Positions 42,358-58,292 of a DNA stretch of 64,000 nt are shown piece by piece. The stretch is from positions 1,984,001-2,048,000 of the forward strand of contig NZ_JAUSZR010000001.1 in assembly GCF_030817835.1 (NCBI RefSeq), in the 5' to 3' direction. The notes under the pieces were generated by a model. It did not search any database and was not told the DNA's origin. It worked only from the letters and a program-made list of their open reading frames with translations. A program made the translations under genes and the position numbers. The DNA comes from Pseudarthrobacter sp. W1I19. GTDB lineage: Bacteria; Actinomycetota; Actinomycetes; Actinomycetales; Micrococcaceae. Each line of letters opens with the position of its first letter. The stretch's first letter is position 1.

Positions 42358-42465
42358 GATCTTCACCTCGGAATCTAATAATGTGAACCGCTGAATGATT
42401 TGTTTGTCCTGGGCATGGGTGCTGGGGACACTTCCAAAGCTACGGATGCGCGTGGTGACACAACA

Positions 42466-42481
42466 TCACCACAATTGGTGA
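42466..42481 (-). promoter_or_regulatory. LuxR-type operator, site A
   Basis: Palindrome TCACCA-ATTG-TGGTGA (minus reading), flanked on each side by a further TCACCAC half-site. The downstream words GTCACCAC and CCGTAGCTTTGGAAGTGTC are shared with site B. It lies about 109 bp upstream of leader copy A. Confidence 0.7.
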
Positions 42482-42535
42482 ATGAGGTGGTGATTCGAAT
42501 GGGATTCACATTTCTGGTGACGAATTCGTAGGTTC

Positions 42536-42996
42536 TTATCTACGCGGCCAAGCCCCGATCAGTCCGACAACGCTGATCGTTCCGCAATCTTCACGGCTCT
42601 GAGGGAATGAGCAAGGTTTTCCCACGGGTCGTTTCAACCGTGTGATCGACCACGTACCGCGGCATTCTGGACAAGAGCCCACTCGGTCCGAACTTCCGGA
42701 CCTCGGCGATGGTGCTCTATCGGCGTCACAGCGCTCCAGTTCGAGAATGAGGATGAGGACGCGCTGCACACTAACTCCGCCACCACCACTCTCGTGCGAC
42801 CATCGGCCACAGCAAAACCGATGTAGACAGCGCGCAGACGACGGCGAGACCGAGAGCGTAAACAGTGGCGGGTCGGAGCCATGAGAACGCGGGACGACGC
42901 GGCTTGCCCCACGGCGATGACCACGCCCCAGATGACGGCCCACGTCGGCACACTCGCCGGCATGCGGCCACTTCCCGGGCGTTCAAGAGAGGACAT
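42536..42996 (-). pseudogene. Broken small membrane-protein gene
   Basis: From ATG 42996 (AAGAAGG upstream) the product starts MSSLERPGSGRMPASVPTWA with a hydrophobic WAVIWGVVIAVGQAA. A second hydrophobic stretch, ATVYALGLAVVCALSTSVLL, is in another frame, and the tail in a third. This suggests a membrane-protein gene with two indels. Family unknown. It is the last unit of the MFS/hydrolase/flavoprotein run. Confidence 0.4.
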
Positions 42997-43048
42997 GTGT
43001 ATCTGCCTTCTTGTCATCGACGTTTTGATAGCCGGGATCGGCTGTCAG

Positions 43049-44092
43049 CTACAAATTCTGGGTGATCAGTTCGCTGAGCTGACGGGCGTCCTCGCCCACG
43101 AAACCCAGAAGGGCCGATCCACGATTCCGCTGCCAAGGTCGGCCGATCGTGAACAAGCCACGCATCGGCGTCACGCCTCCGTCGGTGACGAGGGTGTGTG
43201 AGCTGTCCAATGCTCCCGACACGTCGATCCAACGATCGTCGGTGACATAACCAGTAGCCCAAATCACCGAGTCGGGACGAACGACCGCGCCGTCGGCGAA
43301 GCTCACCGTGGCGGCGTCAGCACCCAATGCACCCGGATGAAGCACGACGCCCGCGTTCCGAAGCTGTCGACGGGTCGTACCAATGATCGGCTCCGATCTC
43401 CTGAGGTAGCGACCGATGGGAGAGGTTGGGCGTGCCTTCACGATGCCGGTCTTGTCGAACCACCAGTATAGATTTCGGCCGAGTACCTTCTGCGGTAACG
43501 TTCGTGCTCGCGTGCGCTCGCCCAGATGCACGCGCTTACCCGCGCTCGCCAACTCCAACGCGATCTGGAGGCCGGCGTTTCCGCCTCCCACCACGACGAC
43601 TTCTTCACCGTGGATCTGGGCTGCGTTCCGGTAGGACTCCGAGTGGAGTTGCTGGATGTGCTCCTCGAGAGCGACCGCGAATGGCGGTACGCACGGTGTT
43701 GCGAATGGGCCGGTGGCGATCACCACTCGGTCGGCGGGCTCGATCGTCCCGCCGACGTCGACGAGAAAGGTGTCGCCGTCGTGCTGAACGCGCTCGACGA
43801 GCGAGCTGAACCGGACATTCAGATTGTGGGCTTGCGCGTAGCCGGCGAGGTAGTGACTGACCTCGTCCTTCGTCGGATGGCTCCACGGGTCCGTGGACGG
43901 GAACTGTGAGCCGGGCAGGCCAGAGTATCGAGCCGGAGTAAACAACCTCAGGGAGTCCCAGCGCTGTGACCACTGCGATCCCGGCCGATCATGGGCGTCA
44001 AGGATGACGTAGTCCACGCCCGCGGCCTGCAGGTAGTGCCCGATCGCGAGACCCGCCTGACCGCCACCGACAACGATGACCCGGCCGTTCAC
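43049..44092 (-). CDS. Flavin-dependent monooxygenase/oxidoreductase (CzcO-like)
   Basis: A 347-residue NAD(P)/FAD protein. The FAD dinucleotide fold is VIVVGGGQAGLAIGHYLQAA (GxGxxG at 9-14). WSQRWDSLRLFTPARYSGLP is typical of the class B flavoprotein group. A second GxGxxG (VVVVGGGNAGLQ, near 170) binds NADPH, and the ATG-type motif appears as VIWATGYVTD. It is shorter than Baeyer-Villiger enzymes. Its ATG overlaps the stop of the alpha/beta hydrolase gene (44089-44092), so both are co-translated. Oxidation of a small organic compound, then hydrolysis, is a plausible joint role. Confidence 0.8.
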   Translation of the reverse strand: MNGRVIVVGGGQAGLAIGHYLQAAGVDYVILDAHDRPGSQWSQRWDSLRLFTPARYSGLPGSQFPSTDPWSHPTKDEVSHYLAGYAQAHNLNVRFSSLVERVQHDGDTFLVDVGGTIEPADRVVIATGPFATPCVPPFAVALEEHIQQLHSESYRNAAQIHGEEVVVVGGGNAGLQIALELASAGKRVHLGERTRARTLPQKVLGRNLYWWFDKTGIVKARPTSPIGRYLRRSEPIIGTTRRQLRNAGVVLHPGALGADAATVSFADGAVVRPDSVIWATGYVTDDRWIDVSGALDSSHTLVTDGGVTPMRGLFTIGRPWQRNRGSALLGFVGEDARQLSELITQNL

Positions 44093-45198
44093 GACCGACC
44101 CTTGCCGCCGGCCAGGGGCTTCGGATCGTACTGAATCTCCCAGCCCGACGCAACGAGCGGCGTGGACGGCCCCTGGGATGGGGCACCTTCCTGTAGGAAT
44201 TGCGTGATCTTCTCGGCCATGGCCTTTGATTGTGTCCAGTGCAGGTAATGATTGCCCTCGAGCTCGACGATTTCGTGGCGGCTGACGTTCTTGAGCTGGT
44301 CCTTGTGCGAGTCCAGCCAGCCGGACGCCGAAGCCACGTTGTCACTGGCGATGAAGTGAAGAACGGGCAGATCCTCCGGGTAGCGCACGTCGCGGAGTGC
44401 CGCGGCGTTGCTGGCGACGTGAGCGGCTTCGTCGTGAACGGTAGCGTTGCCGAAGTTCCAGCTTGTCATCTGCCGCATGCGCTCTATTTCGGATGGGGTG
44501 TAGTCGTCGCTTTTCGGGGCCACCACGCTGGGCGCGGCCCAGACCACGGTTCGGACGAAGCCGATTGTGGACAGTATCCCGGTGATATTGGGGCCGCCGT
44601 TGTTAGCCGTGGCTTCCTTCTCGAGCTGGGCGTTGGGCACACTGGAGTCGATGCCGATCACGGCGGCTACTTCGCTGGGGTACCGGTTGGCGTAGTCGAG
44701 TGTGTACAAGCCCCCGAGCGAGTGTGCAGCCAGGACGTATGGTTCCTTGAGATCGAGTGACGAGAGGGCCTCGTGCAGCTCAGTGCTGATGTTCTTCGCG
44801 GTTCGCTCACGTGCGGTCAAGTCGCTGTAGCCGTATCCGAAGCCCTCGACGACGATCACGTCGTAAGCATCGAGTTCCCTGATCAAAGGGGCGAAGTCCA
44901 GGCCCGGAGCTACCGTGGAAAAGCCGCTGAGCAGGACCAGGGGTTGTCCGCCTTTGGTGCCGGCCCGAACGACGTTCAGTGCGCCTCCCGCGACCTCCAC
45001 CAGTTCACCGTACTGGGCAGTGCTCGACCTCTCCTGCTGTTCCAGGACCGCGTTGGCCGTTGTGGATGCAAGCGTGATTCCCAGCGCGGTGAGTGCGATG
45101 ACACCAATCACCTTGCGGGTGCGATGGAATGGCCAGAGACGCTTTCCAGGTGTTCCTTCTGTTGCGGGCTGTGATGGCTTACGAGTGACTTGCGGCAT
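44089..45198 (-). CDS. Membrane-anchored alpha/beta hydrolase
   Basis: A 369-residue hydrolase. An N-terminal anchor or signal segment (VIGVIALTALGITLASTTAN) follows the basic KRLWPFHRTRK. The catalytic domain has the nucleophile Ser in AAHSLGGLYTLDYANRYPSE, an acid in the late strand, and the His in ELEGNHYLHWTQSK. ATG 45198 (MPQVTRKPSQP) is preferred. A second member of this family survives as a stump at 41890-42138. It is the middle gene of the MFS/hydrolase/flavoprotein operon. Confidence 0.8.
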   Translation of the reverse strand: MPQVTRKPSQPATEGTPGKRLWPFHRTRKVIGVIALTALGITLASTTANAVLEQQERSSTAQYGELVEVAGGALNVVRAGTKGGQPLVLLSGFSTVAPGLDFAPLIRELDAYDVIVVEGFGYGYSDLTARERTAKNISTELHEALSSLDLKEPYVLAAHSLGGLYTLDYANRYPSEVAAVIGIDSSVPNAQLEKEATANNGGPNITGILSTIGFVRTVVWAAPSVVAPKSDDYTPSEIERMRQMTSWNFGNATVHDEAAHVASNAAALRDVRYPEDLPVLHFIASDNVASASGWLDSHKDQLKNVSRHEIVELEGNHYLHWTQSKAMAEKITQFLQEGAPSQGPSTPLVASGWEIQYDPKPLAGGKGRS

Positions 45199-45258
45199 GG
45201 GATTGTGTCCAGAGGGTTGGGGATGTTCGGATGAAGGAAGGGTCCGTGGGGACCCGGT

Positions 45259-45293
45259 CAGTGGGGCACGGCGGGATACGCCGTGCCCCACTG
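45259..45293 (-). promoter_or_regulatory. Intercistronic hairpin after the MFS gene
   Basis: A perfect 15-bp stem, CAGTGGGGCACGGCG and its complement, around a 5-base loop, just after the MFS stop and before the hydrolase gene. No T-run follows, so partial termination or transcript stabilisation is more likely than a full stop. Confidence 0.6.
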
Positions 45294-45298
45294 GGTGA

Positions 45299-46732
45299 CT
45301 ATGCCGCGGCTTCCGCCGTGACCGGTTCGTGCGCTACGACTGCAGTGGGTCGCAAGGCAATAGCGGCGACGGCTGCCCCGATGAGGGCCAGAATTGCCGC
45401 TCCGATGAAGGCGGCGGAGTAGCCGTCTGTGAGCGCCACTGCATCACCGGTTGGACCAGTGAAGCCGGCCGCTACCGCAGTCAGGGCGGCGAGGCCTATG
45501 GCTGAACCGATCTGGTAGCTGGTGTTCACGAGTCCGGCGGCGACGCCGGTCTCTTCTGGCCGTGCGCTTGAGATGGCGGTTGTCAACGAGGGGATGAAGG
45601 CGAGCGCCATTCCCAGCGCGGCGAGGAGGGACGCCGGGAGAACATCAATCCAGTAGCTGCCGTTTGGCCGCACGAGTGCCAACCAGACGAGGCCGGCGCT
45701 CAGAACGAGAAGGCCGCTGACGATCATGGGTTTCGACCCGAATCGGGCCTGGAGTCGAGGGGCGAGGGCGATCATACCGACCACGATCAAGGCGGTCATC
45801 GGCAGCAGTGCGGCACCGGATGCGAATGCTCCGGCGCCCAGAACCTGCTGGAGGTAGAGGTTCAGGAAGAACCACATTGGAATCCATGCTGCCCCGAGGA
45901 ACACCTGTGCCAGGTTCGCTGCGCCGAGCTGAGGCGCTCGGAAGATGCTGAGGCGGAGGAGGGGTTGCCGGCTGCGCGACTGCATCACGAAGAACAGCAG
46001 TAGCAGCCCGGTGCCCCCGATCACAGCGATCAAGGTCTCGGCGGCTACCCACCCGGCTTCTGGTGCGCGAACGATTCCGTAGACGAGCGCGGTGAGGCCA
46101 ACGGTGGCTGTTATCGCTCCGGCAACGTCGATGGAGCCGCTTCGTGCCGCCGGTATGGCCGGCAGCGCGAAGAATGCCCCGATGGTCACCAGGACGGCGA
46201 TGGGGATCGTGATGTAGAACACCCAGGGCCAACTGGCGTATTCGGTGAGCACTCCGCCGAGGAACACGCCCGTTACTCCGCCGATCGGCGCGGCTGCTCC
46301 GTAGATCGCGAAGGCTTTCGGGAGGTCACGAGTTCCTCCGAAGAGAGTCATGAGTAGTGTCAGCGCGGCGGGGGCGATCAGCGCGGCACCCACGCCTTGC
46401 ACAGCCCGGCCCGCGATTTCAACGCCGACCGTGCCTGCGACTCCTGCGAGGACGGAGCCGACAAGAAGTGCCGCCCAGCCTGCGATGAAGACCTTGCGCG
46501 CGCCGAAGAGGTCGGAAAGTCGGCCTCCGAGCAGGAGCAGCCCGCCGAAGGCCACCACATAAGCGTTGAAGACCCAGGACAACGACTCGGGGGTGAACCC
46601 GAGTTCGCGCTGGATGTCCGGTAAGGCGACGCCGATGATCGACGTGTCCATGATCACCACGAACTGCGCGGCGGCGATGAGGGCCAGGCCCAACCACCGT
46701 CGCCGGGTAGGGCGGTCTGTAAGCGAACTCAT
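45299..46732 (-). CDS. MFS efflux transporter (DHA2/EmrB-QacA type)
   Basis: A 477-residue transporter with about 14 membrane helices. The family signatures are FVVIMDTSIIGVALPDIQRE in helix 1 and LGGRLSDLFGARKVFIAG between helices 2 and 3. ATG 46732 (MSSLTDRPTRRRWLGLALIA) follows GGAGTAACA. The MSSLTD start is identical at the DNA level to the starts at 42138 and 58293, so this gene acquired the same start cassette. The promoter contains a CsoR-like palindrome at 46785-46801, and operator D lies further upstream. Likely role: export of a toxic organic compound. Confidence 0.85.
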   Translation of the reverse strand: MSSLTDRPTRRRWLGLALIAAAQFVVIMDTSIIGVALPDIQRELGFTPESLSWVFNAYVVAFGGLLLLGGRLSDLFGARKVFIAGWAALLVGSVLAGVAGTVGVEIAGRAVQGVGAALIAPAALTLLMTLFGGTRDLPKAFAIYGAAAPIGGVTGVFLGGVLTEYASWPWVFYITIPIAVLVTIGAFFALPAIPAARSGSIDVAGAITATVGLTALVYGIVRAPEAGWVAAETLIAVIGGTGLLLLFFVMQSRSRQPLLRLSIFRAPQLGAANLAQVFLGAAWIPMWFFLNLYLQQVLGAGAFASGAALLPMTALIVVGMIALAPRLQARFGSKPMIVSGLLVLSAGLVWLALVRPNGSYWIDVLPASLLAALGMALAFIPSLTTAISSARPEETGVAAGLVNTSYQIGSAIGLAALTAVAAGFTGPTGDAVALTDGYSAAFIGAAILALIGAAVAAIALRPTAVVAHEPVTAEAAA

Positions 46733-46784
46733 TGTTACTCCTTGCATAAGGGCCGAATGAAAATACATGGTCGGGGTACACCGC

Positions 46785-46801
46785 ATACCCCCTAGGGGTA
46801 T
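46785..46801 (-). promoter_or_regulatory. CsoR/FrmR-like operator in the MFS promoter
   Basis: The arms ATACCCC and GGGGTAT around a 3-bp centre resemble CsoR-family boxes. On the minus strand it lies between TTGACG and TATGCG, which are 17 bp apart and suit -35 and -10 elements, so a bound repressor would block the MFS promoter. No CsoR-type gene is in the window. Confidence 0.6.
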
Positions 46802-47004
46802 TGTCGTCAAACAAAGATGTGGTGTACCGGCGTGCCGTGTCCCTGGTCGGAACAGTCGATCGCCCGAGGGAAGTGAGTCCATCCGGCCTCGGCTGCGTGG
46901 TGCGGGTCGGATGGTGGTCGTCACGTCGTTTTCGCCAGTGTGTTGGCGGACGCAACTTTCTATTGGGTTGACAGCAAGGTACAAGGACATGTGATGAGCA
47001 CGCA

Positions 47005-47020
47005 TCCCCACATGTGGTGA
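47005..47020 (-). promoter_or_regulatory. LuxR-type operator, site D
   Basis: Minus reading TCACCA-CATG-TGGGGA, one mismatch from the palindrome of sites A-C, followed by a CATCACATG half-site and GTACCTTG. It lies between the MFS gene and the divergent LuxR gene, about 270 bp from either start. Confidence 0.55.
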
Positions 47021-47275
47021 TAAGCGTGGCAATGCTCCATCAGTCTGGCGTGGCCTGAGTAAGCCGCTCTCGTAGGCGATGATCACGAGCTGGGCCCGAT
47101 CGGGGGCACCGTCTCATCTGGGGTTTTGCAGGTGCGTTCGCAATGCGGCCTCAGCGCGCTCCTCGATCAGACGCTTCGACGACGGGCACTAGAGGCCTCC
47201 AGCCTGAATATGCAGACAAGGGCAGGAGCGTTCACAACGGCCTTTCGGGGGAACCTGCCCCTCTATACTGGGGGT

Positions 47276-50017
47276 ATGCTGACGCCTGTGCTGGCTACGA
47301 AGCTCTTTGTTCCGGCACCGCGCCCACAGATTACTTCCCGGCCCCGCCTGTTTAAGCGCCTCACCGATGACTTGAGCGCGAGCCGGAAGTTGTCACTCGT
47401 GTGCGCCCCTGCGGGCTTCGGCAAAAGCACTCTGCTCAGCGAATGGATCACCCAGCGCAGACGGCAGCACCCCGACGTATGTATTGCCTGGCTGTCCCTC
47501 GACGCGCACGATAACGACCCCTCACGCTTTCTTGCCTACGTTGTTGCTGCGCTGCAGGGCGTGGACCCGGAAATAGGCGCTGAGATCACGGGCCTGAGGC
47601 ACAGCGGCCAGGTCCTGGCGGTGGAACCGGCGCTGACGTCCCTGATCAATGACATAGCGCGGTCCGGGAAAGAGTTCATCCTCGTGCTGGATGACTACCA
47701 CGTGATTGAAGAACGACAGGTTCATGAAGCCCTCGCGTTTCTTCTTGACCATCTGCCGCCACAGTTGCACCTGGTCATCGCCACAAGATCGGATCCGCCG
47801 CTGTCGCTGGCCCGTTTACGGAGCCGGGGTGAGCTAACCGAGTTTCGGGCCGCCGACCTGCGCTTCACATTTGACGAAGCGGCTGATTTCCTCAACCAGG
47901 TTATGAATCTGGGTCTTTCAGTGGACGACATCGCTGCTCTCGAGACCCGGACCGAGGGGTGGATCGCGGGGCTTCAGCTGGCCGGGGTGTCGCTACGGGA
48001 GCATGGGGACGTCTCCGGGTTCATCAAGGCTTTCACGGGAAGCCATCGCTTCGTCATCGACTATCTGGTGGAGGAGGTGTTGCAGCGCCAGTCAGCCGAA
48101 GTCCGCAATTTCCTGCTGACCACAGCTCTCCTGGACCACATGACAGGAGGTCTGTGTGAGGCACTCACAGGTGTGGGTGGAGGCCAGGGCATGCTTGAGG
48201 CGCTGGAGCGGGACAATCTGTTCGTTATGCCGCTGGATGATCGGCGGCAGTGGTATCGCTATCATCATTTGTTCGCTGAAGTCCTGCGTGGACGGGCATT
48301 ACAGGAACTGCCCGGCCGTATGCCTGAGCTGCATCGACTGGCAAGCGAATGGTATGAACAGAATGACCTGACAGAGGACGCGGTTCACCATGCATTGGCG
48401 GCCGAGGACTTTGAACGGGCCGCCGACCTGATCGAAGCGGTTCTGCCGACACTGCGCCGGACCCGACAGGATGGAATGATGCTGGCCTGGCTGACGGCCC
48501 TTCCTGACGAGGTGGTCCGTACCCGCCCCCTGCTCAGCGTCTTCTACGCATGGCGCATGCTCGTCTCCGGCGACCTCGACACCGTCGAGCCCTGGCTTCG
48601 GGCCGCTGAACAGGGACTGGAAGCCGCAACAGCAGACAGTGAGGTACCGGCAAACTCCGCCTCGGCATCAGGCCGAGGGCAAGAGCTCCGAATGCTGCCC
48701 TCCACCATCGCCATGTACCGAGCCTCACTGGCTCAGGCCAGGGGCGACGTTTCCGCCACCGCCCGACACGCACGACAGGCATTTGAACTCGCCCGGCCGG
48801 AAGACCATTTCGCCCGTGGGGCCGCAGCAGCGTTTCTGGGGTTGGCTTCCTGGGCACAAGGCGACGTTGAAACGGCTGTCGGCACCTTCTCGGATGCGGT
48901 CGCGAGCCTCCATGAAGCGGGAAACCTCACCGATGAGCTCAGCAGCACCATCCTGCTGGCGGACATGCAGGTCGCACTGGGGCAGCTCCAGGAAGCGCGA
49001 AAGCTTTACGAAAGGGCCCTTGGCTATGCCGCCGCCCAAGGGGAACCGGCGCCCCGTGCCACTGCTGAGCTGCACGTGGGCTACAGCGAGCTCTGCCGTG
49101 AATTTGGCGACCTGGAGAGCGCAGTCCGGCATCTTCAAACAAGTAAAGAGCTGGGCCGGCAAGTCACTCCCCTGACGGAGCACTCTTACCGGTGGTTCGT
49201 TGCGATGGCAGGCGTGAGGGAATCCGAGGGGGACATGGCCGGGGCCATTGAGTCCCTTGACCAGGCCCAACTCCTGTATCTGCGTGGCTTTTTCCCGGAG
49301 GTGCGCCCAATCCCGGCATTGAAGGCGCGTATGGCGGTCAGGCAGGGGCGACTGTCAGAGGGCTGGGAGTGGGCACGTAGCCGCGACCTGTTGCCGGTGG
49401 GGGAGCTGAGCTACCTGCGGGAATTTGAGCATCTCACCCTGGCGCGTCTTCTCATTTCCCAATTCAGGGTCCTACCGGCAGAGAAAACGATTCAGGAGGC
49501 GGCGGACCTGCTCATGCGCCTGCTCGAAGCGGCGGAGGCAGCCGGACGCAAAGGAAGCATATACGAGGTCCTCGTGCTGCAGGCCCTCGCGCTGGAGGCC
49601 CAGGGCCAACGCGCACTGGCGCTGGTGCCCCTGGAACGTGCCCTGGTGGAAGCCGGACCGGAGGGTTACGTCCGCCTCTTTCTTGATGAAGGCCCGCCCC
49701 TGGCGCCGCTGCTGGCTGAGGCAGCAGGCAAGGGCCCAGCCCTTCCCCACACCGCCCTGCTTCTCCAATCCTTGGAACCCGGGAAATCTCAAACGGTCAT
49801 CAGGAGGACTCCTACACCTCAGCTGGAGGACCTCAGCAAGCGCGAGCTGGAGGTACTGAGGTTACTTGGCACGTCATTGAGCGGACCGGAGATCGCCCGC
49901 CAGCTCTTTGTCTCGGTCAACACCCTGCGCACCCACACCAAACGCATCTTCACCAAGCTCGAGGTCAACAACCGGCGGGAAGCGGTGCGCCATGGCAAGG
50001 AACAGGGCCTACTTTGA
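47276..50017 (+). CDS. Large ATP-binding LuxR (LAL/MalT-type) regulator
   Basis: A 913-residue regulator. The N-terminal STAND-type ATPase has Walker A LVCAPAGFGKST (residues 41-52) and Walker B FILVLDDYH (near 135-142). A central tetratricopeptide-like helical region follows, and a C-terminal LuxR helix-turn-helix (LSKRELEVLRLLGTSLSGPE, IARQLFVSVNTLRTHTKRIF). MalT and LAL proteins are ligand-activated and bind several spaced sites. ATG 47276 (MLTPVLATKLFVPAPRPQI) matches the family start; upstream frame sequence is not family-like. Four candidate operators nearby suggest it controls the surrounding export and hydrolase operons. Confidence 0.85.
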   Translation: MLTPVLATKLFVPAPRPQITSRPRLFKRLTDDLSASRKLSLVCAPAGFGKSTLLSEWITQRRRQHPDVCIAWLSLDAHDNDPSRFLAYVVAALQGVDPEIGAEITGLRHSGQVLAVEPALTSLINDIARSGKEFILVLDDYHVIEERQVHEALAFLLDHLPPQLHLVIATRSDPPLSLARLRSRGELTEFRAADLRFTFDEAADFLNQVMNLGLSVDDIAALETRTEGWIAGLQLAGVSLREHGDVSGFIKAFTGSHRFVIDYLVEEVLQRQSAEVRNFLLTTALLDHMTGGLCEALTGVGGGQGMLEALERDNLFVMPLDDRRQWYRYHHLFAEVLRGRALQELPGRMPELHRLASEWYEQNDLTEDAVHHALAAEDFERAADLIEAVLPTLRRTRQDGMMLAWLTALPDEVVRTRPLLSVFYAWRMLVSGDLDTVEPWLRAAEQGLEAATADSEVPANSASASGRGQELRMLPSTIAMYRASLAQARGDVSATARHARQAFELARPEDHFARGAAAAFLGLASWAQGDVETAVGTFSDAVASLHEAGNLTDELSSTILLADMQVALGQLQEARKLYERALGYAAAQGEPAPRATAELHVGYSELCREFGDLESAVRHLQTSKELGRQVTPLTEHSYRWFVAMAGVRESEGDMAGAIESLDQAQLLYLRGFFPEVRPIPALKARMAVRQGRLSEGWEWARSRDLLPVGELSYLREFEHLTLARLLISQFRVLPAEKTIQEAADLLMRLLEAAEAAGRKGSIYEVLVLQALALEAQGQRALALVPLERALVEAGPEGYVRLFLDEGPPLAPLLAEAAGKGPALPHTALLLQSLEPGKSQTVIRRTPTPQLEDLSKRELEVLRLLGTSLSGPEIARQLFVSVNTLRTHTKRIFTKLEVNNRREAVRHGKEQGLL

Positions 50018-50052
50018 GGGCCCCGGCAGCCCTCGGAGAGTCACCACACCTA

Positions 50053-50068
50053 TCACCACGGATGGTGA
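50053..50068 (+). promoter_or_regulatory. LuxR-type operator, site C
   Basis: TCACCA-CGGA-TGGTGA, with TCACCAC half-sites on both sides and a GGTAGCTTCAGGTTGTCGG segment downstream. It lies 81 bp before the ATG of the membrane protein at 50149, the same distance as site B from its leader gene. Confidence 0.7.
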
Positions 50069-50148
50069 CGCGGAGTCACCACACGCCCCGGTAGCTTCAG
50101 GTTGTCGGGGCATCCGCTCCGGGCCAACCAAACCAGAGAGCGCGGACC

Positions 50149-50835
50149 ATGAGCATCACACCGAGCAAACTTATCCAGGCCGCCGGTATATCCGCCCTGC
50201 TGGCCGGGCTCCTATACATTCTCAGGCAACCACTGCATCCAACAGATGAGGTGTCCGAAGTTTATGGCCTCGCCTGGCTGATCGTAGGGTACATGACCCT
50301 GTGCATGTCAGTCCTGGGACTGGCCGGCGTGACAGGCATCTACCTCCGACAGGTCAAGGAAACCGGGCTGCTTGGACTGATCGGGTACCTCATGTTCGGT
50401 GCATGGTTCGTGCTGTTGACCGCCTTCACCTTCGCCCAAACGCTCATCCTGCCGCCACTGGCTCCTGAAGCACCCCAGTTCGTGGACAGCTTCCTGGGAA
50501 TCTTCAGCGGCTCCGGCGGCGAGGTAAGCCTGGGCGCTTTGGAATCACTGCCCCTGGTCTCAGCCGTGCTCTATATTCCAGGCGGCCTCATATTCGGCGT
50601 CGCCATCTACCGTGCCCGGATCCTTTCCCGTTGGGGCGCTGGCGTCCTGATCGCCGGAATGGCCCTCACGCCTCTTGCCTCAATCTTCCCGCACACCGCC
50701 GGCAGTGCCTTCGCCGTACCGGTGGGCCTGGCGATGATGTGGCTCGGCTATTCCCTCTGGTCTGAAGGACGTGCAAACGCAGGCCGCCAACTGGGCCAGG
50801 AAAGCCACCGGCCCTCCCACGCTCCTGCCAACTGA
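50149..50835 (+). CDS. Multi-pass membrane protein
   Basis: A 228-residue protein with about six membrane segments (ISALLAGLLYIL, LAWLIVGYMTLCMSVLGLAG, LLGLIGYLMFGAWFVLLTAF, AVLYIPGGLIFGVAIY and others). The pattern is like DUF4386-type proteins. It follows the LuxR regulator by 131 bp and has operator C in front, so it is a likely direct target. Function unknown. Confidence 0.7.
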   Translation: MSITPSKLIQAAGISALLAGLLYILRQPLHPTDEVSEVYGLAWLIVGYMTLCMSVLGLAGVTGIYLRQVKETGLLGLIGYLMFGAWFVLLTAFTFAQTLILPPLAPEAPQFVDSFLGIFSGSGGEVSLGALESLPLVSAVLYIPGGLIFGVAIYRARILSRWGAGVLIAGMALTPLASIFPHTAGSAFAVPVGLAMMWLGYSLWSEGRANAGRQLGQESHRPSHAPAN

Positions 50836-50999
50836 AACCAATACAGACCCCGTGACGAAGTACCAGGACAACGTCCTCGGGCATTTGATGCGCATCAAGC
50901 CACCTCGCTCAGAGCGTCTCTCTCGGCAGGAGCTCAATCATGTTAACGTCCCGCCCGCATCGGTGGGACGGTAGCCGCCTTCGAAAGGGGATGAACGAC

Positions 51000-51254
51000 A
51001 TGCCAGCAGAACACCATCGACCCGGGCAGTACCAACTACGCATCGGAGGACACCTCGACAGTTCTTGGACCGATTGGTTCGAAGGCATGGTCCTCACACA
51101 AGAAAACGATGGAACAACCAGCCTGTGCGGACCCGTCGCCGATCAGGCAGCGCTGCACGGCCTGCTCGCAAAAGTTCGGGACATCGGCGCGACGTTGATA
51201 GCCGTGAATTTCCTGGAGGACCCAAGCCCGCAGAACAAAACCACCAAAATCTAG
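51000..51254 (+). CDS. Small conserved actinobacterial protein
   Basis: An 84-residue protein (start MPAEHHRPGQYQLRIGGHLD; GAAAGGGG upstream). SSWTDWFEGMVLTQENDGTT, then SLCGPVADQAALHGLLAKVR, matches a common small actinobacterial family of unknown function often found near DUF4386 and LuxR genes. It lies downstream of the membrane protein and probably belongs to the same unit. Confidence 0.7.
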   Translation: MPAEHHRPGQYQLRIGGHLDSSWTDWFEGMVLTQENDGTTSLCGPVADQAALHGLLAKVRDIGATLIAVNFLEDPSPQNKTTKI

Positions 51255-51548: not shown

Positions 51549-52175
51549 ATGTCATCAAAAATCGAAGTACTCCTACCGGCAGCACTCATCAGGATCTTTG
51601 CCTTCGCAGGATTTATCTCAGCAGCAATACTGTTGGTCAACGCGGCAAAGAGGGCAGGAATCATTCCCACATCACCTTTCACCCAGCTCGCTGCACCGAT
51701 CGCTCAAATTGCCGCCATCGGACTGGTGATCGGGATGTATCTGTTGATTTCCCGCAAGGCCGGGACCTTGGCAACCTTAGGTGCAGTTATCTCCGTAACA
51801 TCGCTAGCCGGCCTCGTCGGGGTCGAGTTTGTCCTCAACCTCGTCTTTCCCTACATTGGCCAAGATGTAATTGCCGTCCTGCGTTCAGGTCCCTTGGGTA
51901 TCGCCCTGACAGTGGTATCGATGCTTTTCCTGCTCGGTACCGTGATCTTCATGCTCACGCTGTGGCGCACTTCAAGCGCTCCGAAAGGCGCCATAATCCT
52001 ATACGCGGCGAGTTCACTTCCCATCGCCCTGCGAACGGTATTTCCGGAAACCGTGCTGCAGCTAGGGCTCGTTGGTTTGGCCGTAGCCGCCGCTTTCCTT
52101 GCAACCTGGATGCTACGCAGCATTCCTCGTGCAACAGCCGACGAGGTCGCAGCCAGGGCACAGGCAACACGGTGA
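51549..52175 (+). CDS. DUF4386-like multi-pass membrane protein
   Basis: A 208-residue protein with six hydrophobic segments (LIRIFAFAGFISAAILLVNA, IAQIAAIGLVIGMYLLISRK, TLGAVISVTSLAGLVGVEFV, LTVVSMLFLLGTVIFMLTLW and others) and a short basic tail. No motif indicates transport. It resembles the two other small membrane proteins at 50149 and 52594 and may belong to the same functional group. Confidence 0.65.
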   Translation: MSSKIEVLLPAALIRIFAFAGFISAAILLVNAAKRAGIIPTSPFTQLAAPIAQIAAIGLVIGMYLLISRKAGTLATLGAVISVTSLAGLVGVEFVLNLVFPYIGQDVIAVLRSGPLGIALTVVSMLFLLGTVIFMLTLWRTSSAPKGAIILYAASSLPIALRTVFPETVLQLGLVGLAVAAAFLATWMLRSIPRATADEVAARAQATR

Positions 52176-52593
52176 CTGCACCCTAGCTAGCCGTAACTGC
52201 CCGAAGTGCCCCGCCGACTCTTTGCGGTCGGCGGGGCGCGTCTCTCTGGACCAGAACGCGCTGAGAAAGCCGCTACCCGCCGTTTTCCAAGAGGTAAGGT
52301 CCCGCGAATTGCCCTGTTGCGTGCGGGCTTTCTCTTTGTGGCGCTCGGCTCACAGCTACGTGATGGCCCCTGCTGATTTTGGCTCGGCACCTTGGCGCTG
52401 CCGCTGTGGCTCGCCGGTGAGCTCAACGACGCCACCGCCACCGCTGCGATCAACTGCTCTCTTGTTGTTATCGTCCTCCTCATCCTTCCCTGGCAATCCC
52501 TGGTCCGGCAGTACGTGACCAGGCCGCGTGACCGCTGCCTGCCCCAGACCCGCTGACACTCGCACCCGCCCCCTCATCAGGAGACCAATCATC
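52176..52593 (+). pseudogene. Fragment of a membrane-protein gene
   Basis: One frame reads GFLFVALGSQLRDGPC, a TGA stop, then FWLGTLALPLWLAGELNDAT and INCSLVVIVLLILPWQSLVR, ending at a TGA near 52555. The hydrophobic pattern and in-frame stop suggest a decayed membrane-protein gene. Nothing else was seen in the gap, apart from GGAGACCAATC before the next gene. Confidence 0.4.
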
Positions 52594-53331: not shown

Positions 53332-53639
53332 AAGCCGCCGTGTACCGCCGCTTCGGCAGCCCGGACGTGGTCCTGCTCGATGATCAGCCCAAACCCACCC
53401 CGCGGCGCGGCGAACTGCTGGTTAGGGTCCAGGCAACGACTGTCAGCGCCGCTGACTACCGGGCCCGGACCAAACACGTTCCACAAGGGCTGAAGCTTCT
53501 CAGCTCGGTCACCCTCGGGATTATCACCCCGCGCACCCCGGTCCTAGGCATGGACGCACCGTTCTACGCCACAGTCGGCTTCGTCGCCGCAACAATTCTT
53601 GCAGTACTCCTCGTTGCAGGAGCAGACCTCCATGCCTGA
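53328..53639 (+). pseudogene. Truncated zinc-type alcohol dehydrogenase with a foreign tail
   Basis: Residues 1-70 (MKAAVYRRFGSPDVVLLDDQ, LVRVQATTVSAADYRARTKH and PRTPVLGMD) are the N terminus of a medium-chain dehydrogenase/quinone reductase. The product then switches to APFYATVGFVAATILAVLLV and AGADLHA, a membrane-like tail from another gene. The catalytic and NAD(P)-binding domains are missing. A deletion probably joined two genes. The fragment still overlaps both neighbours (ATGA with the DUF4386 stop; eight bases with the MFS start), so coupled translation is retained. Confidence 0.65.
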
Positions 53640-55110
53640 CCGCGACTCCAGTACGTACGCTGCACCCGGCATGGGCTCACGCGCGAAACAGCGCATCACT
53701 TTGCTCGTACTTATCGCGGCACAGTTCGTGGTGATGCTCGACACAGCAGTGGTGAATGTCGCGCTCCCCTCTATCCAGGGGGATCTGGGACTCACGCAAA
53801 CCGGTGTCGCCTGGGTGGTGAATGCCTACTTCCTGAGCTTCGGCGGCTTCCTGCTGTTGTCCGGCCGGGCGGCTGACCTTTTCGGCAGCCGCCGGATGTT
53901 TATGCTGGGGTCAGCGCTATTCACAGCCACGACCCTGATGGCCGGGTTAGCGCCCAACGAAGCTATCCTGGTGATCGCGCGAGCACTCCAAGGGATCAGC
54001 GCAGCGATCCTGAGTCCGGCCGGGCTCTCTATCGTTCTGGTGGGTTTTCAGGGGGCCGAGCGAGCGAAAGCCATGGGCGCTTGGGGTGCAGCATCAGCCG
54101 CGGGAGGCGCGATCGGTGTCTCTGCCGGCGGTCTGGTGACAGCCGCACTGGGCTGGCAATGGGTGTTCTTTCTCACCGTTCCGATCACCCTGCTGACCTT
54201 CGTGGTCGCTCCGCTACTCTTCGATGCCCCCTCGGCAATGAGGACTGACCGCCGCTTTGACGCGTGGGGAGCGGCATCCATCACAGGGGGCGCGCTCTCC
54301 CTCATCTACGCGACACTATCGGTCGCCGAGCGCGGATGGCTCTCGACCGAAACCATCGGCGGCGGAATGGTCGGTGTTGCCCTACTCGGCGCGTTCATAG
54401 CCATCGAGCGCCGGGCCGCTGACCCAATCGTTCCGCTGCAGTTGTTCCGAGAGCGGACTGTATCGGCAGGTGTAATCGTCGGGCTCCTGGGAGGAGCCGC
54501 GCGGGTGTCGACGTTCTATCTCAGCGCCCTTTACCTGCAGCAAGCGCTTGCCTTCAGTCCCGGCGTTGCCGGGTTCGCGATGGTTCCGACGTCAGTAGCC
54601 GGATTCTTGGTTTCGCTCCTACTGCTTCCTCGTATCGTCAAACGGTTAGGCGCAGGACAAACGCTCGTGCTGGGGCTGGTGCTATTGGCGTGCGGGCATT
54701 TCTGGCTCGCACACACTCATCCCGGCGCCGGATACTGGTTCGACGTCCTGCCCGGGCTCCTCCTGGCCGCGGCAGGAGTGGCCCTCAGCTTCACACCATC
54801 GACGATGGTGATTGCCGCAGGCATCCCGGCCACGCTCACCGGGCTGGCGTCGGGATTGGCGAACGCCAGTTCGCAAATCGGCGGCGCGTTCGGCATCGCA
54901 GCCTTCAGCGCCATTGCTGCGATCACCACGCAGGCGGGCGGACTTGCCACCGGGTTCCATTACGCCTTCATCGCCGCAGGAGTCATTGCATCGGTCGCCG
55001 CAATCGTCGCGTTCGAATACCTGCGGCCGGGATCAGGCGCGACCCATCCTCGGGTTAGAGGGATTAGAACGGCACGATCTATAACAAAAGGAAAAGAACC
55101 AAATGAGTGA
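53632..55110 (+). CDS. MFS efflux transporter (DHA2/EmrB-QacA type)
   Basis: A 492-residue transporter with about 14 helices. FVVMLDTAVVNVALPSIQGD is in helix 1, LSGRAADLFGSRRMFMLGSA in the loop 2-3 region, and the later helices are typical of DHA2 drug exporters. ATG 53632 (MPDRDSSTYAAPG) lies within the truncated dehydrogenase reading frame. It is similar in type to the transporter at 45299-46732 but clearly diverged. A 56-residue gene overlaps its end. Substrate unknown. Confidence 0.85.
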   Translation: MPDRDSSTYAAPGMGSRAKQRITLLVLIAAQFVVMLDTAVVNVALPSIQGDLGLTQTGVAWVVNAYFLSFGGFLLLSGRAADLFGSRRMFMLGSALFTATTLMAGLAPNEAILVIARALQGISAAILSPAGLSIVLVGFQGAERAKAMGAWGAASAAGGAIGVSAGGLVTAALGWQWVFFLTVPITLLTFVVAPLLFDAPSAMRTDRRFDAWGAASITGGALSLIYATLSVAERGWLSTETIGGGMVGVALLGAFIAIERRAADPIVPLQLFRERTVSAGVIVGLLGGAARVSTFYLSALYLQQALAFSPGVAGFAMVPTSVAGFLVSLLLLPRIVKRLGAGQTLVLGLVLLACGHFWLAHTHPGAGYWFDVLPGLLLAAAGVALSFTPSTMVIAAGIPATLTGLASGLANASSQIGGAFGIAAFSAIAAITTQAGGLATGFHYAFIAAGVIASVAAIVAFEYLRPGSGATHPRVRGIRTARSITKGKEPNE

Positions 55111-55273
55111 TACCTGGTTTACCGTTGAAACAAATGACAAAAAGATATTCTCGATGGACGAGGTAAAGGTTTCCTTTAGGAAGGATCCGCAAGTTGGAAG
55201 AGTGTGGTCTATGTCCCAGGCTCAGCTGGCCGATCTTCAGAGCGCCATCGATGCCTACTCCGGGATGAACTGA
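55103..55273 (+). CDS. 56-residue small protein overlapping the MFS stop
   Basis: ATG 55103 lies in the last codons of the MFS gene (8-base overlap), with AAAGGAAAAG as ribosome binding site. The product, MSDTWFTVETNDKKIFSMDE onward to QLADLQSAIDAYSGMN, is a soluble acidic 56-residue protein. The DNA is A/T-richer than its surroundings. Translational coupling suggests it works with the transporter, or is made in fixed ratio to it. No family is recognised. Confidence 0.65.
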   Translation: MSDTWFTVETNDKKIFSMDEVKVSFRKDPQVGRVWSMSQAQLADLQSAIDAYSGMN

Positions 55274-55421
55274 GTAGCCAACGCTCCATTTCCACTTCTG
55301 CCAGGCACCACGCCAACACGTTTCCTAACGCTGGTAACGGTTAGTTCAAGGCGTGAGGATCCAACCAGGGTTAACCTACAGCACGCCTAACCTAATGTAA
55401 GAAGGTGTGGTTGAGTGGAGC

Positions 55422-57272
55422 ATGGCTTCACTCATCGAGGATTATGCGTTGCTATCGGACCTTCAGACGGGGCCACTCATATCCCGGGATGGCAGTGTGG
55501 ACTGGCTCTGTTTCCCGCGCTTCGACTCACCGTCGGTGTTTAGCCGAATCCTGGGCACCGAAGAGCATGGCCGCTGGCTGTTGGCGCCCAGCGAAGCCGG
55601 CGCTGCCGTTGTCGATCGGCACTATATTGACTCGACATTTGTGCTACAAACCATCTGGAAGACCGGCAGCGGATCCGTCCAGGTCACCGATTTTATGCCG
55701 CTGGGCGACAGCGGATCATCCCTTGTCCGCCGGGTTACCGGATTGGAAGGAAGCGTTGAAATGCGCCAGGACCTTCGGATCCGCCCAGGATATTCAACGG
55801 TCTTGCCCTGGATGAGTCGTGTACGCGACAACGCGCAGACGGCGGCGCCAGTCCTGTTGGCCCTGGCCGGTCCTGATGCTCTCGCACTGAGGGGACCTCA
55901 TCTTCCGCATGCCCAGGCGCACGGGCACGAAGGAGAATTCCTCATTTCGAAAGGCGAGCAGCTTGACTTCGAACTAACGTGGTTCCACTCGCACCGCCCC
56001 CTGCCGGCAGCGACTGACGTTGATGTCGCCCTCGAAGAAGCCACTGACTATTGGAGCCGCTGGGGAAGTCACTGCAGGCAGGACGGGGCCTATGGGGGCG
56101 CGGTAAAACGTTCGTTGTTGGTACTGCGGGCCCTGACGCATTTTGAAACGGGCGGCATCGTCGCAGCGCCCACCACGTCCCTTCCTGAGGATTTCGGCGG
56201 GCCGCGGAACTGGGACTACCGGTACTGCTGGCTGCGTGATGCGGCTCTGACACTGGAGTCGATGCTGACCCATGGCTATGAAACGGAGGCGCTTCAGTGG
56301 CGCAACTGGCTCCTTCGGGCACTGGCCGGCGATCCTGAGCAAATGCAGATCATGTACGGGGTCGGGGGAGAGCGGGAACTCCCTGAACGCGAGCTCAACC
56401 ACCTGCCTGGCTACGCGGACTCTAAGCCTGTGCGCATTGGAAACGCTGCTGTAACGCAGTTCCAGGCTGATGTTGTCGGTGAAGTGATGGTGGCATTGGA
56501 AAGACTGCGGATGGCCGGAGGCAAAGAAGACCATTTCTCCTGGGCCCTTCAGAAGGCACTCTTGGGATTCGTCGAAAAACACATCGATGACAAGGACTTC
56601 GGCCTGTGGGAAATGCGCGGTGCCGCACAATACTTCACCCACTCCCGGGTAATGATGTGGGCCGCCTTCAACAGCGGGATCCGCGCCATACAGATCCACG
56701 GACTATCTGGCGATGCCACAAAGTGGGAGAAGCTCCGGGACCGGTTACGTGAAGAGATCATGCGCGAGGGCTTCAACCCGAGCATCAATTCCTTTACGCA
56801 GACCTATGGCGGAACGCAGACTGATGCGGCTCTGCTCGTTATGCCCCAGGTCGGTTTTCTCCCCTACAACGACAAGCATATGCTTGGCACAGTCACACGG
56901 CTGGAACAGGAACTCCTGACCGACGACGGCCTGCTGCTGCGCTATCGGACAGAGAGCGGCGTTGACGGCCTGGAACCGGGTGAACATCCTTTCCTGGCCT
57001 GCTCCTTCTGGCTTGTGGAGCAGTACGCGCGTACAGGCCGGCAGGCCGAGGCGATGGTCTTGATGGACAGGCTCGTGGGGTTTGCCAACGAGCTTGGTCT
57101 GCTGAGCGAGGAGTACGCAACGGCAGAGGACCGGATGGCGGGGAACTTTCCGCAGGCCTTCTCGCACTTGACCCTTGTCAGGGCGGCCGATGCCATGCAT
57201 GGGGTTGACCGCCTCAGTCTGGCCACCACCGCTGAAATTCTAGGCGGACAAGAGGAATCAAGTTCAGGATGA
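55422..57272 (+). CDS. Glycoside hydrolase family 15 protein (glucoamylase/trehalase-like)
   Basis: A 616-residue GH15 enzyme. The N-terminal beta-sandwich starts IEDYALLSDLQTGPLISRDG and SVDWLCFPRFDSPSVFSRIL. The (alpha/alpha)6 catalytic domain has FGGPRNWDYRYCWLRDAALT and FGLWEMRGAAQYFTHSRVMM, which hold the general acid region. Actinobacterial members include trehalases and glucoamylases. No signal peptide is present, so it acts in the cytoplasm, probably on trehalose or short glucans. ATG 55422 (MASLIEDYALLSD) matches the family start. Confidence 0.85.
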   Translation: MASLIEDYALLSDLQTGPLISRDGSVDWLCFPRFDSPSVFSRILGTEEHGRWLLAPSEAGAAVVDRHYIDSTFVLQTIWKTGSGSVQVTDFMPLGDSGSSLVRRVTGLEGSVEMRQDLRIRPGYSTVLPWMSRVRDNAQTAAPVLLALAGPDALALRGPHLPHAQAHGHEGEFLISKGEQLDFELTWFHSHRPLPAATDVDVALEEATDYWSRWGSHCRQDGAYGGAVKRSLLVLRALTHFETGGIVAAPTTSLPEDFGGPRNWDYRYCWLRDAALTLESMLTHGYETEALQWRNWLLRALAGDPEQMQIMYGVGGERELPERELNHLPGYADSKPVRIGNAAVTQFQADVVGEVMVALERLRMAGGKEDHFSWALQKALLGFVEKHIDDKDFGLWEMRGAAQYFTHSRVMMWAAFNSGIRAIQIHGLSGDATKWEKLRDRLREEIMREGFNPSINSFTQTYGGTQTDAALLVMPQVGFLPYNDKHMLGTVTRLEQELLTDDGLLLRYRTESGVDGLEPGEHPFLACSFWLVEQYARTGRQAEAMVLMDRLVGFANELGLLSEEYATAEDRMAGNFPQAFSHLTLVRAADAMHGVDRLSLATTAEILGGQEESSSG

Positions 57273-57659
57273 AACCGGCTACGGTAATGTTGGGTCGGCG
57301 CCACACCGTCAACACTCCTAAACCTTCGCCCTCAGCGCACGACTTCCGCGGCCGCCTTCAAGGCTCACACGCAAAATCCTCCTCCCACGCGAGAACGATC
57401 CACGCGACGAAGTGGACGACAGTTGGGAAGAAAGGTTGGTTAGACTCTCGCAGCCGTTTCTCGCGACAGCTTTACACGCCGGGATTGACCGTGACCACGG
57501 TTCGCGCGTTTTGAGTGAGATGCCCGAGACACGACACTGTTCTGGAGTTCAAGGGCCTGCCAATATCCTGCTGCTTGTCAGCTTGCGATCACTTGACCAC
57601 TTGAGCAAGCTGCTGGACAGCATTAATGGACGATTCCCGGATGCCGCGATGATCTGAGC
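57273..57659. other. Intergenic stretch, no gene seen
   Basis: Short frames without family features follow the GH15 gene. The right end borders the IS110-like fragment. Confidence 0.45.
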
Positions 57660-57757
57660 AAGTTCGGTGTCGGCTGCTTCGATCTCCTCGGGCGCGCTGG
57701 CGAGCAAGCTCTTGAGCTGAATCTGGACCATGGTGCGGGCTTTGATCGCACGTTCAG
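57660..57757 (-). pseudogene. Fragment of an IS110-like transposase
   Basis: The minus strand reads AERAIKARTMVQIQLKSLLA then SAPEEI, like the central segment of IS110-type transposases. It ends where the LuxR relic begins (57758), marking a recombination junction. A C-terminal IS110 relic lies at 63265-63665. Confidence 0.45.
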
Positions 57758-57941
57758 CTGAGCGAGCGGGAACTCGAGGCGCTCCGGCTTCTCGTCTCTT
57801 CCCTGAGCGGACCTGAGGTTCCCCGGCAGTTGTATGTCTCAATCAACACACCCGGGAGCCATATTCGGCACATCTTCGAAAAGCTCCAGGTGAACAGCCC
57901 GGCGGAGCCAGTTCGCCGTACGCGAGTACGGGTTCCTCTGA
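57758..57941 (+). pseudogene. Relic of a LuxR helix-turn-helix domain
   Basis: LSERELEALRLLVSSLSGPE, VPRQLYVSINTPGSHIRHIF and EKLQVNSPAEPVRR match the C terminus of the regulator at 47276-50017 position by position (LSKRELEVLRLLGTSLSGPE...). A frameshift precedes the last codons; the original end reads EYGFL and a TGA at 57939-57941. It is followed by operator B, as the intact regulator is followed by operator C. Confidence 0.8.
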
Positions 57942-57975
57942 ACCAATCAATTTCATCCGAGAATCACCACCCCGG

Positions 57976-57991
57976 TCACCATAGGTGGTGA
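57976..57991 (+). promoter_or_regulatory. LuxR-type operator, site B
   Basis: TCACCA-TAGG-TGGTGA with an AATCACCAC half-site upstream and GTCACTAC downstream, then CCGTAGCTTTGGAAGTGTC as at site A. It lies 81 bp before leader copy B. Confidence 0.7.
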
Positions 57992-58071
57992 TGCCCTGTC
58001 ACTACGGGTATCCGTAGCTTTGGAAGTGTCCCCGTCAGCGGTTCACATTATTAGATTCCGAGGTGAAGATC

Positions 58072-58236: not shown

Positions 58237-58292
58237 CCACTGCAATCAACCAATGCCGGGTATTGGCCCGGCTCTTGTACTAGGAGTAGCAA

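Follow-up and report, generated by a model that had tools for sequence, protein, structure and literature searches.

LAL/MalT-like regulators are common, and in the accounts available binding sites are described for only a few of them: the MalT proteins, TpdR and SCO6993, the last without a consensus. In Actinoplanes sp. SE50/110, MalT (ACSP50_3915) is reported to activate 40 of 51 clustered genes, and its palindrome TCATCC-5nt-GGATGA, overlapping the -35 region, ends 34.4 nucleotides (nt) before the transcription start site (TSS) at 17 start sites (PMC7567727). For MalT of E. coli and Klebsiella the MalT box GGGGA(T/G)GAGG is given (quoted in PMC7567727). Here we describe a stretch of 64,000 nt of Pseudarthrobacter sp. 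W1I19 (contig NZ_JAUSZR010000001.1, positions 1,984,001 to 2,048,000, hereafter the window), in which a composite element with four TCACCA(C) half-sites recurs around the gene of a MalT-like LAL/LuxR regulator. The copies of this element are very probably the promoters of one regulon, bound by the regulator in their midst.

The locus shares with the reported Actinoplanes system a MalT-like LuxR regulator within a cluster of its own, non-maltose (here putative) targets, and a motif that is found in relatives as well (PMC7567727). It differs in the half-sites (TCATCC there, TCACCA or TCACC here) and in the spacing of the hexamers (N5 there, N4 here); the available part of that account mentions no third or fourth half-site, no 3′ placement and no helix covariation (PMC7567727). 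With MalT of E. coli and Klebsiella the regulator has domain layout and sequence homology in common, and there too the sites, in direct repeat, lie near the -35 region (PMC7567727, PMC6099782, PMC9628970). On its complementary strand the MalT box has the core TCATCC, which resembles the TCACC/TCCCC found here; the GGA(T/G)GA of the box itself is lacking in the half-sites, which read TCACCA(C), that is (G)TGGTGA, related but in other letters. Unlike in E. coli and Klebsiella, an inverted pair is combined here with two direct copies at centre-to-centre steps of 12, 10 and 13 bp, and no maltose genes are among the putative targets identified here.

TpdR of Rhodococcus jostii is likewise an actinomycete LAL activator of an inducible promoter with repeats overlapping the -35 region, but it is a protein of 788 amino acids (aa) for which 15-nt direct repeats TnnAAnnGCGGAnTC are the proposed site and one target operon is reported (PMC6099782). 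SCO6993 of Streptomyces coelicolor is reported as a LAL protein binding palindromes as well; it is a repressor of 606 aa, and its sites have no consensus (PMC9628970). The operator described here, in its letters, four-half-site layout, 3′ position, spread over phyla and helix covariation, was not found in the literature as judged from titles and the beginnings of abstracts, most subscription journals being outside the search.

The composite element and the regulator in its midst

The element and the regulator gene were located as follows.

42437–42493, minus strand: site A, full composite and predicted promoter, facing left; palindrome 42466–42481, -10-like TAGCTT 42437–42442
46976–47032, minus strand: the 47005 site, degenerate composite facing the MFS operon; palindrome 47005–47020, -10-like TACCTT 46976–46981
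47276–50017, plus strand: MalT-like LAL/LuxR regulator, 913 aa, with P-loop ATPase, MalT TPR and C-terminal GerE helix-turn-helix (HTH); the longest open reading frame (ORF) starts at 47126 (963 aa)
49913–49942, plus strand: codons of the putative recognition helix S-V-N-T-L-R-T-H-T-K; HTH positions +10, +11, +12 and +19 covary with operator letters
50041–50097, plus strand: site B, full composite and predicted promoter directly 3′ of the regulator stop; palindrome 50053–50068, TAGCTT 50092–50097
57964–58020, plus strand: site C, composite and predicted promoter; palindrome 57976–57991, TAGCTT 58015–58020
Genome position 2048306, 306 bp past the end of the window: site D, fifth composite copy

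Alignment of the sites gives a composite of 57 bp, TCACCAC-N5-TCACCA-N4-TGGTGA-N7-TCACCAC-N9-TANNTT. Counted from base 1 of the palindrome, TCACCAC lies at -12, TCACCA at 0, TGGTGA at +10, TCACCAC at +23 and TAGCTT or TACCTT at +39. Each of the steps between half-sites (12, 10 and 13 bp) is about one helical turn, so that all four half-sites could share one face of the DNA. An earlier note on this stretch had reported the palindrome as exact at A, B and C and with one mismatch at 47005, with extra half-sites and a GTAGCTT word at fixed offsets, 81 bp from palindrome to ATG at B and C, and the LuxR gene amid the sites. All four palindromes were re-found, the half-sites and the word recur, with up to 3 mismatches, in all five composites returned by the genome search described below, the distances (50068 to 50149 and 57991 to 58072) are indeed 81 bp, and the regulator gene lies between the sites. 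Site B starts 23 bp past the regulator stop. The left-facing 47005 site is the weakest copy, with 26 of 30 template positions and a poor outer half-site (TTGCCAC); sites A, C and D keep 29–30 of 30.

With up to two mismatches, the bare palindrome has 8 matches in the window; 100 shuffles averaged 2.39 and never exceeded 6. An equal frequency elsewhere in the genome, which the earlier note had named as an argument against its reading, was not found: of five exact palindromes in the 4,812,144-bp genome four lie within 21.9 kb (reversed-pattern control 0), and the fifth, at 3582187, has no extra half-sites and was set aside. At two mismatches the bare palindrome is too loose a marker (275 genome matches versus 119 in the control); it was therefore dropped and composites were counted instead. 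Searching the whole genome with palindrome, downstream half-site and GTAGCTT at up to 3 mismatches gave exactly five matches, namely A, 47005, B, C and D, all in the 22 kb around the regulator. On the 30-position template these five score 26–30; no other place in the window or in the 10 kb that follow exceeds 18. The reversed-pattern control for the composite was 0 in this genome as well as in the samples introduced below (genus, with both versions of the element; phylum; 34 genomes of relatives).

The regulator likely starts at ATG 47276 rather than at TTG 47126 of the longest ORF, because near-complete relatives align only from codon 31–55 onward. Pfam recognises TPR_MalT (2.4e-66) and GerE (2.6e-14); AAA_16 (residues 76–218 of the 963-aa ORF) and AAA_22 (87–207) stay below the Pfam cut-offs (E 4e-5 and 1e-4). 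The family profile matches MalT in the PDB (8bob at 1.6e-94, aligned over profile positions 6–418; also 1hz4), the P-loop residues G-F-G-K are invariant in 14 aligned rows, and the HTH has those of NarL and VraR as solved relatives. As in LAL regulators, a large protein carries a P-loop ATPase domain at its N-terminus and a LuxR/GerE HTH at its C-terminus, and its MalT TPR region and nucleotide-binding domain are recognised by sequence as MalT-like; it falls short of the MalT equivalog model (NCBIfam NF003420, 405 bits versus a cut-off of 537). We place the regulator in the MalT-like LAL group, for which MalT-type promoter logic is already known.

The layout around the palindrome is that expected of such promoters. 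TANNNT, which played no role in the choice of sites, stands at +39 in 61 of 64 elements outside and 24 of 24 inside the genus (88 of 89 distinct elements, L179 being too short), and at any other offset from +30 to +55 in at most 7 of the 64 outside. The -35 hexamer is poor: the mean match to TTGACA is 0.65–3.07 of 6 letters over spacers of 14–21, and at least 5 of 6 letters occur in 7/88 elements, all at spacer 18. The predicted sites overlap the -35 region at a fixed offset from the -10, as in MalT-type regulons, and the palindrome would end about 36 nt before the expected TSS. By analogy, this arrangement of palindrome, poor -35 and fixed -10 matches the MalT-type class of activator promoters. 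A terminator-like hairpin with a T run separates regulator stop and operator in 19 of the 38 loci with enough room, so that the element there is set apart from the regulator transcript.

Co-occurrence, conservation and helix covariation

The distribution of the element follows that of the regulator. Among 150 genomes of the genus (G000–G149), 32 are regulator-positive at E 1e-100 or better. The TCACCA-type composite was found in 13 genomes and a TCACCC-type, defined from the 3′ regions of regulator relatives, in 16 (jointly 26), and these are 26 of the 32 regulator-positive and 0 of the 118 remaining genomes. The hypergeometric p of 1e-23 is uncorrected for kinship, and the association is partly expected, as most sites adjoin the gene; sites remote from it still belong to regulator-positive genomes (13 kb off in G025, 9 kb off in G116, on another contig in G057). 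Regulator-positive genomes without a match are G002, G058, G111, G128, G131 and G137; a variant element was seen by eye in five, G131, with a partial regulator match, not being among the five loci inspected. In a phylum-wide sample of 296 genomes the composite occurs in 5 of 31 with a regulator at E 1e-150 and in 0 of 265 others. Across the genome samples searched, no composite turned up in a genome that does not encode the regulator.

Relatives of the regulator were scanned at 80 loci, mostly of other genera (seven, named Arthrobacter or Pseudarthrobacter, are counted with the genus). Exact TCACC-N6-GGTGA occurs 37 times outside and never inside the regulator genes, while N5 and N7 spacings give 3 and 1 matches. 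Most of these matches (28/37) sit 10–273 bp past the end of the regulator match; others lie 1.5–4.3 kb away, either upstream (L103, L104, L130, L180) or downstream (L132, L171, L175). Autoregulation through the regulator's own 5′ promoter was considered and appears rare, as only the matches in L138 and L158 are near the gene start. A test of the layout that is independent of the letters, in which four 7-mers have to agree 3′ of the stop, was passed at a score of at least 16 by 44 of 76 loci, compared with 3/380 Markov-resampled sequences and 1/76 in-gene stretches; altered layouts, which retain some half-sites in place, gave 77/456. The test omits L128 and L173 (ending at the gene), L157 (<300 nt) and L143 (scoring 21 elsewhere).

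At threshold 18, in a score with a bonus for TC starts, 54 of the 78 loci that could be scored have the element, no more than 330 bp beyond the regulator stop on its 3′ side. By phylum these are Actinomycetota 25/40, Chloroflexota 19/24, Bacillota 7/8, Cyanobacteriota 1/2, unplaced 2/2 and others 0/2, with many of the loci being metagenome bins for which single placements may be wrong. A larger set comprised 162 distinct loci (171 of 177 with at least 80 nt of 3′ sequence, nine being the same locus twice). Here the element at threshold 19 accompanies 86 of 115 regulators with a GP-type HTH and none of the 47 with another type; threshold 18 gives 91/115 and 1/47 (L232). Grouping by helix pattern yields 85/113 versus 1/49 (92/121 versus 1/50 in a first count on the 171), and a narrower GP pattern 95/117 versus 4/54, the GP grouping itself having been noticed after seeing the data. 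A conservation profile of 39 distinct cores was not used as proof, because half-sites and -10 had entered its selection.

The genome of the regulator encodes 28 candidate relatives of it in a first-pass search. Two Ktedonobacter genomes, G152 (L112) and G153 (L113), and a Chloroflexales bin, G166 (L142), have at least 24–26 regulator-family matches each, 26 candidates per genome having been scored. Eight such regulators were read in G153 and G166, and in five of them the HTH is of another type and the element is absent. In these multi-copy genomes further operators may await discovery.

Half-sites change together within a locus. TCACCAC is found in most loci, TCCCCAC in L106, L116, L118, L134 and L170 (near forms in L131 and L143), TCATCAC in L142, L226, L244 and L259, and TCAACAC in L120 and L256. 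Mutual information between operator letters and HTH residues (numbered from the G of GP) was computed for 89 distinct of 98 loci that score at least 18 and have a GP-type HTH. The highest ranks are operator position 3 with HTH +10 (z 30) and with +12 (z 20), followed, after a framework pair at rank 3 (position 3 with -6, z 17), by position 4 with +19 (z 13) and position 6 with +11 (z 13); further framework pairs come after these (position 6 with -11, z 11), and such pairs probably reflect kinship. At position 3, all 8 loci with C have S at +12, and 76 of the 81 with A have N there. Position 4 has T with Q at +19 in 4/6, A with N in 2/2 and C with K, R or S in 81/81, and position 6 has C with H, P or Y at +11 in 13/15 and A with L, V or I in 71/73. 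The covarying segment should be the recognition helix, judging by alignment with solved LuxR-type HTH domains. We take HTH +19 to correspond to a base-contacting lysine of NarL, which a literature search did not confirm.

Genes facing the sites and the duplicated cassettes

Each site faces a different unit, as the earlier note had it. The genes and cassette parts are listed below.

42196–42357, minus strand: 54-aa leader ORF of site A; stop codon 42193–42195, then the truncated 5′ end of a hydrolase gene
43049–44092, minus strand: FAD-dependent oxidoreductase of the 47005-site operon, related to ArsO-type flavin monooxygenases but below that model's cut-off
44089–45291, minus strand: alpha/beta hydrolase of the 47005-site operon
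45299–46732, minus strand: MFS exporter of DHA2/EmrB type, starting MSSLTD; first gene facing the 47005 site
50149–50835, plus strand: membrane protein of 228 aa, first gene after site B; no Pfam family, relatives 3′ of the regulator in other taxa
50940–51254, plus strand: small, conserved protein with an R.xGHLD motif (GHL protein)
51549–52175, plus strand: membrane protein MSSKIEV..., 208 aa, after the GHL protein
57748–58324, plus strand: cassette of stump, operator, leader and MSSLTD start, 94% identical over 579 bp to genome positions 2048077–2048654 (site D)
57749–57925, plus strand: decayed 3′ stump of a second, lost regulator (translated match)
58072–58236, plus strand: 54-aa leader ORF of site C
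58293–59033, plus strand: ABC exporter ATPase of MacB/LolD type behind site C, likely own start 58338
59030–60310, plus strand: FtsX/MacB-type permease behind site C

The 228-aa membrane protein has a relative no more than 5 kb away (tblastn) in 27 of the 54 element-bearing loci and in 10 of the 24 others. Of 78 regulators, 69 have a relative of the GHL protein no more than 5 kb away on the 3′ side, in nearly equal shares of loci with (48/54) and without (21/24) the element; the GHL protein therefore seems to go with the regulator and not with the element. Its family is very large (at least 7995 significant matches) and has no family name; one relative had no Pfam match and the protein of the window no NCBIfam match. 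The fold is predicted as beta-beta-beta-alpha-beta (AlphaFold2, middling confidence, pLDDT 71); Foldseek gave no match at E 0.001 or better, and the best matches, ACT/acylphosphatase-like, were not used as evidence. Genes similar to that of the MSSKIEV protein have their own operator copy, as seen by eye, in six relatives (G025, G102, G106, G116, G130, G135); no separate copy was found at the 51549 gene of the window. Recurrent partner genes at relatives encode the GHL protein, membrane proteins including DUF4386 and DUF2306, and zinc-type oxidoreductases. Together with the exporters and hydrolases of the window, they tentatively suggest that the system responds to a toxic or membrane-active small molecule.

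The hydrolase gene behind site A diverges after about 30 codons. Site D leads first to a relative of the leader ORF and then to a hydrolase; genes for a beta-lactamase-fold protein and a peptide importer come next. The 54-aa leader has a conserved core of about 40 residues with varying ends. It was rejected as a conserved part of the system: it has 35 relatives only (the four with an organism given are from Arthrobacter), and in the cassette G057:C6 the operator runs straight into the hydrolase ORF.

The stump in front of site C encodes a protein sequence 74% identical to the intact regulator of G057 (L016), a member of the genus, and 58% identical to the regulator of the window; stump plus operator DNA is 84.6% identical over 292 bp to the intact gene end in G057. 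As the stump is closer to the G057 regulator, it points to a second regulator system that has lost its regulator here, its promoter-leader cassette having been copied ahead of other genes. The 579-bp identity of C and D ends within the first codons of MSSLTD, and just past this cassette end the ABC ATPase gene has a possible start of its own with a Shine-Dalgarno sequence; the promoter-leader part therefore seems to have been set in front of that gene. In 34 genomes reached via relatives, TCACCA-type composites number 0–4 per genome (present in 20/34), and by coordinate comparison 22 of the 26 sites are some 300 bp or less from a regulator match. Five copies around one intact regulator are therefore at the high end, which fits growth of a regulon by cassette duplication.

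Further, 31 bp of C match D in reverse. Decayed ORFs beside cassette A (41900–42110) and cassette D (L007:9060–9760) look by eye like remnants of mobile-element genes and may be related to cassette movement. Neighbours without a link to the sites are a heavy-metal P-type ATPase (36962–39277, minus strand), a GH15/trehalase-like enzyme (55407–57272, plus strand) and an amidohydrolase (61178–62659, minus strand). A tandem pair of 51-nt repeats, 82% identical, lies at 40248–40349 inside an ORF region.

Proposed mechanism, alternatives and meaning

We hypothesize that the regulator would bind the four TCACCA(C) half-sites, two of them direct, one inverted (forming the palindrome) and one direct between palindrome and -10, and that it would oligomerise on them after binding ATP and a ligand, as inferred from MalT. 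As a ligand-activated, ATP-dependent activator it would substitute for the poor -35, and transcription would start about 7 nt after TANNNT. Its putative targets are the membrane protein and GHL genes at B, the MFS-hydrolase-flavoprotein operon at 47005, the ABC exporter at C, the hydrolase operon at D beyond the window and the broken hydrolase cassette at A. C and D are copies of one cassette, formerly that of the second, now decayed regulator and carried ahead of other genes; they are now probably served by the surviving regulator. We infer binding, activation and this cross-recognition from the architecture, co-occurrence, conservation, covariation and duplication seen in the sequences. The local regulon under a MalT/LAL regulator that the earlier note had proposed fits the restriction of the composite to this part of the genome, the co-occurrence, the adjacency in several phyla and the helix covariation, modest as the last is after tree correction.

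Some observations weigh against this reading. The site at 47005 is degenerate, the TCACCC version has TCACAT as left palindrome arm, and 29 of the 115 distinct GP-type regulators have no element scoring at least 19 in the 3′ stretch read. The covariation has exceptions at position 3 (L142, L259), position 4 (L259, L114) and position 6 (L125, L131, L245, L260). Independent pairs, drawn in 200 random pairings from a FastTree tree built without the HTH, are thin: at position 4, 5 of 7 pairs change in the same direction, 0 in the opposite one and 2 not at all (p 0.0625); at position 3 the means are 1.6 same and 0 opposite, with two supported pairs only; at position 6, 1 of 3 is the same and 2 are unchanged, with one opposite pair in a few of the pairings. 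The tree-corrected covariation is consistent but modest, with too few pairs for significance at any single position. Furthermore, the half-site in the spacer could equally be compatible with repression, and C and D, coming after decayed stumps, could be hitch-hiking relics.

The last two points lead to distinct alternatives. That the same regulator acts as a repressor, with the half-site between palindrome and -10 blocking RNA polymerase until ligand release, is rather unlikely. The promoter-proximal half-site does sit in the spacer, and a LAL protein, SCO6993, is reported as a palindrome-binding repressor (PMC9628970); yet the -35 hexamer matches poorly, a trait of activator-dependent promoters, conservation extends to the outer half-site on the upstream side of the palindrome, and the MalT proteins of E. 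coli and Actinoplanes, which among characterised regulators come closest in motif and sequence, are reported as activators (PMC7567727). Hence the regulator probably acts as an activator, by analogy with these. It is rather unlikely as well that only B and perhaps 47005 are functional and that A, C and D are unread relics of the lost second regulator. A runs into a truncated gene, C and D follow stumps, and the operator region of C is closer to the operator of G057 and G116 than to B; against this, all three copies retain nearly the whole template (29–30/30), C precedes full-length ABC genes, and cassettes of this kind in G025 and G057 lead, away from the regulator, to a hydrolase ORF of at least 336 aa.

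Recognition of the sites by another transcription factor, with the LuxR gene as mere neighbour or co-target, is very improbable. The genome offers 28 first-pass candidates, and linkage to an element 3′ of the gene could explain much of the adjacency and co-occurrence; but the 118 regulator-negative genomes of the genus lack the element even though 20 such genomes listed have 14–30 candidate relatives each, loci with a different HTH type lack it too (0/47), and the operator letters covary with the recognition helix of this very protein. We give hardly any credence to a dispersed mobile repeat (REP- or MITE-like) without regulatory function. Part of the copy number does stem from recent duplication, C and D being 94% identical over 579 bp and A related to them, whereas B and 47005 have only half-sites and -10 in common with the other sites. 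Outside the genus, moreover, half-sites agree per locus and the -10 offset, unused in selection, is fixed, and the 34 other genomes hold 0–4 copies each, 22 of 26 close to a regulator match.

The regulon reading thus concerns an observation that holds and is larger than first described; the fifth site, the decayed second regulator by site C, the small protein 50940–51254 and the conservation in other phyla are absent from the earlier note. Beyond the window, it appears fairly probable that the system is a module: one MalT-like clade (G-P-x-I-A HTH) together with a four-half-site promoter immediately 3′ of the regulator gene, the two staying in register as helix residues and half-site letters change in concert. 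The module would either date back at least to the split of several phyla or have spread between them later. Here promoter and leader ORF would form a plug-in cassette by which, once its own regulator was lost, unrelated export and hydrolysis genes came under the surviving one, and the duplicates C and D illustrate promoter re-use as a route to a larger regulon.

The motif, the fixed promoter layout and a tentative helix-to-base code, obtained from sequence alone, hold across phyla. If the module reading is true, the operators of many orphan regulators would be predictable from three or four helix residues, and for a large class of regulators not yet characterised, sequence may suffice to read off the targets. 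Many genomes at once become open to tests of binding, target lists and inducers, and the partner genes (GHL protein, DUF4386/DUF2306 membrane proteins, zinc-type oxidoreductases, exporters) would gain a shared regulator.

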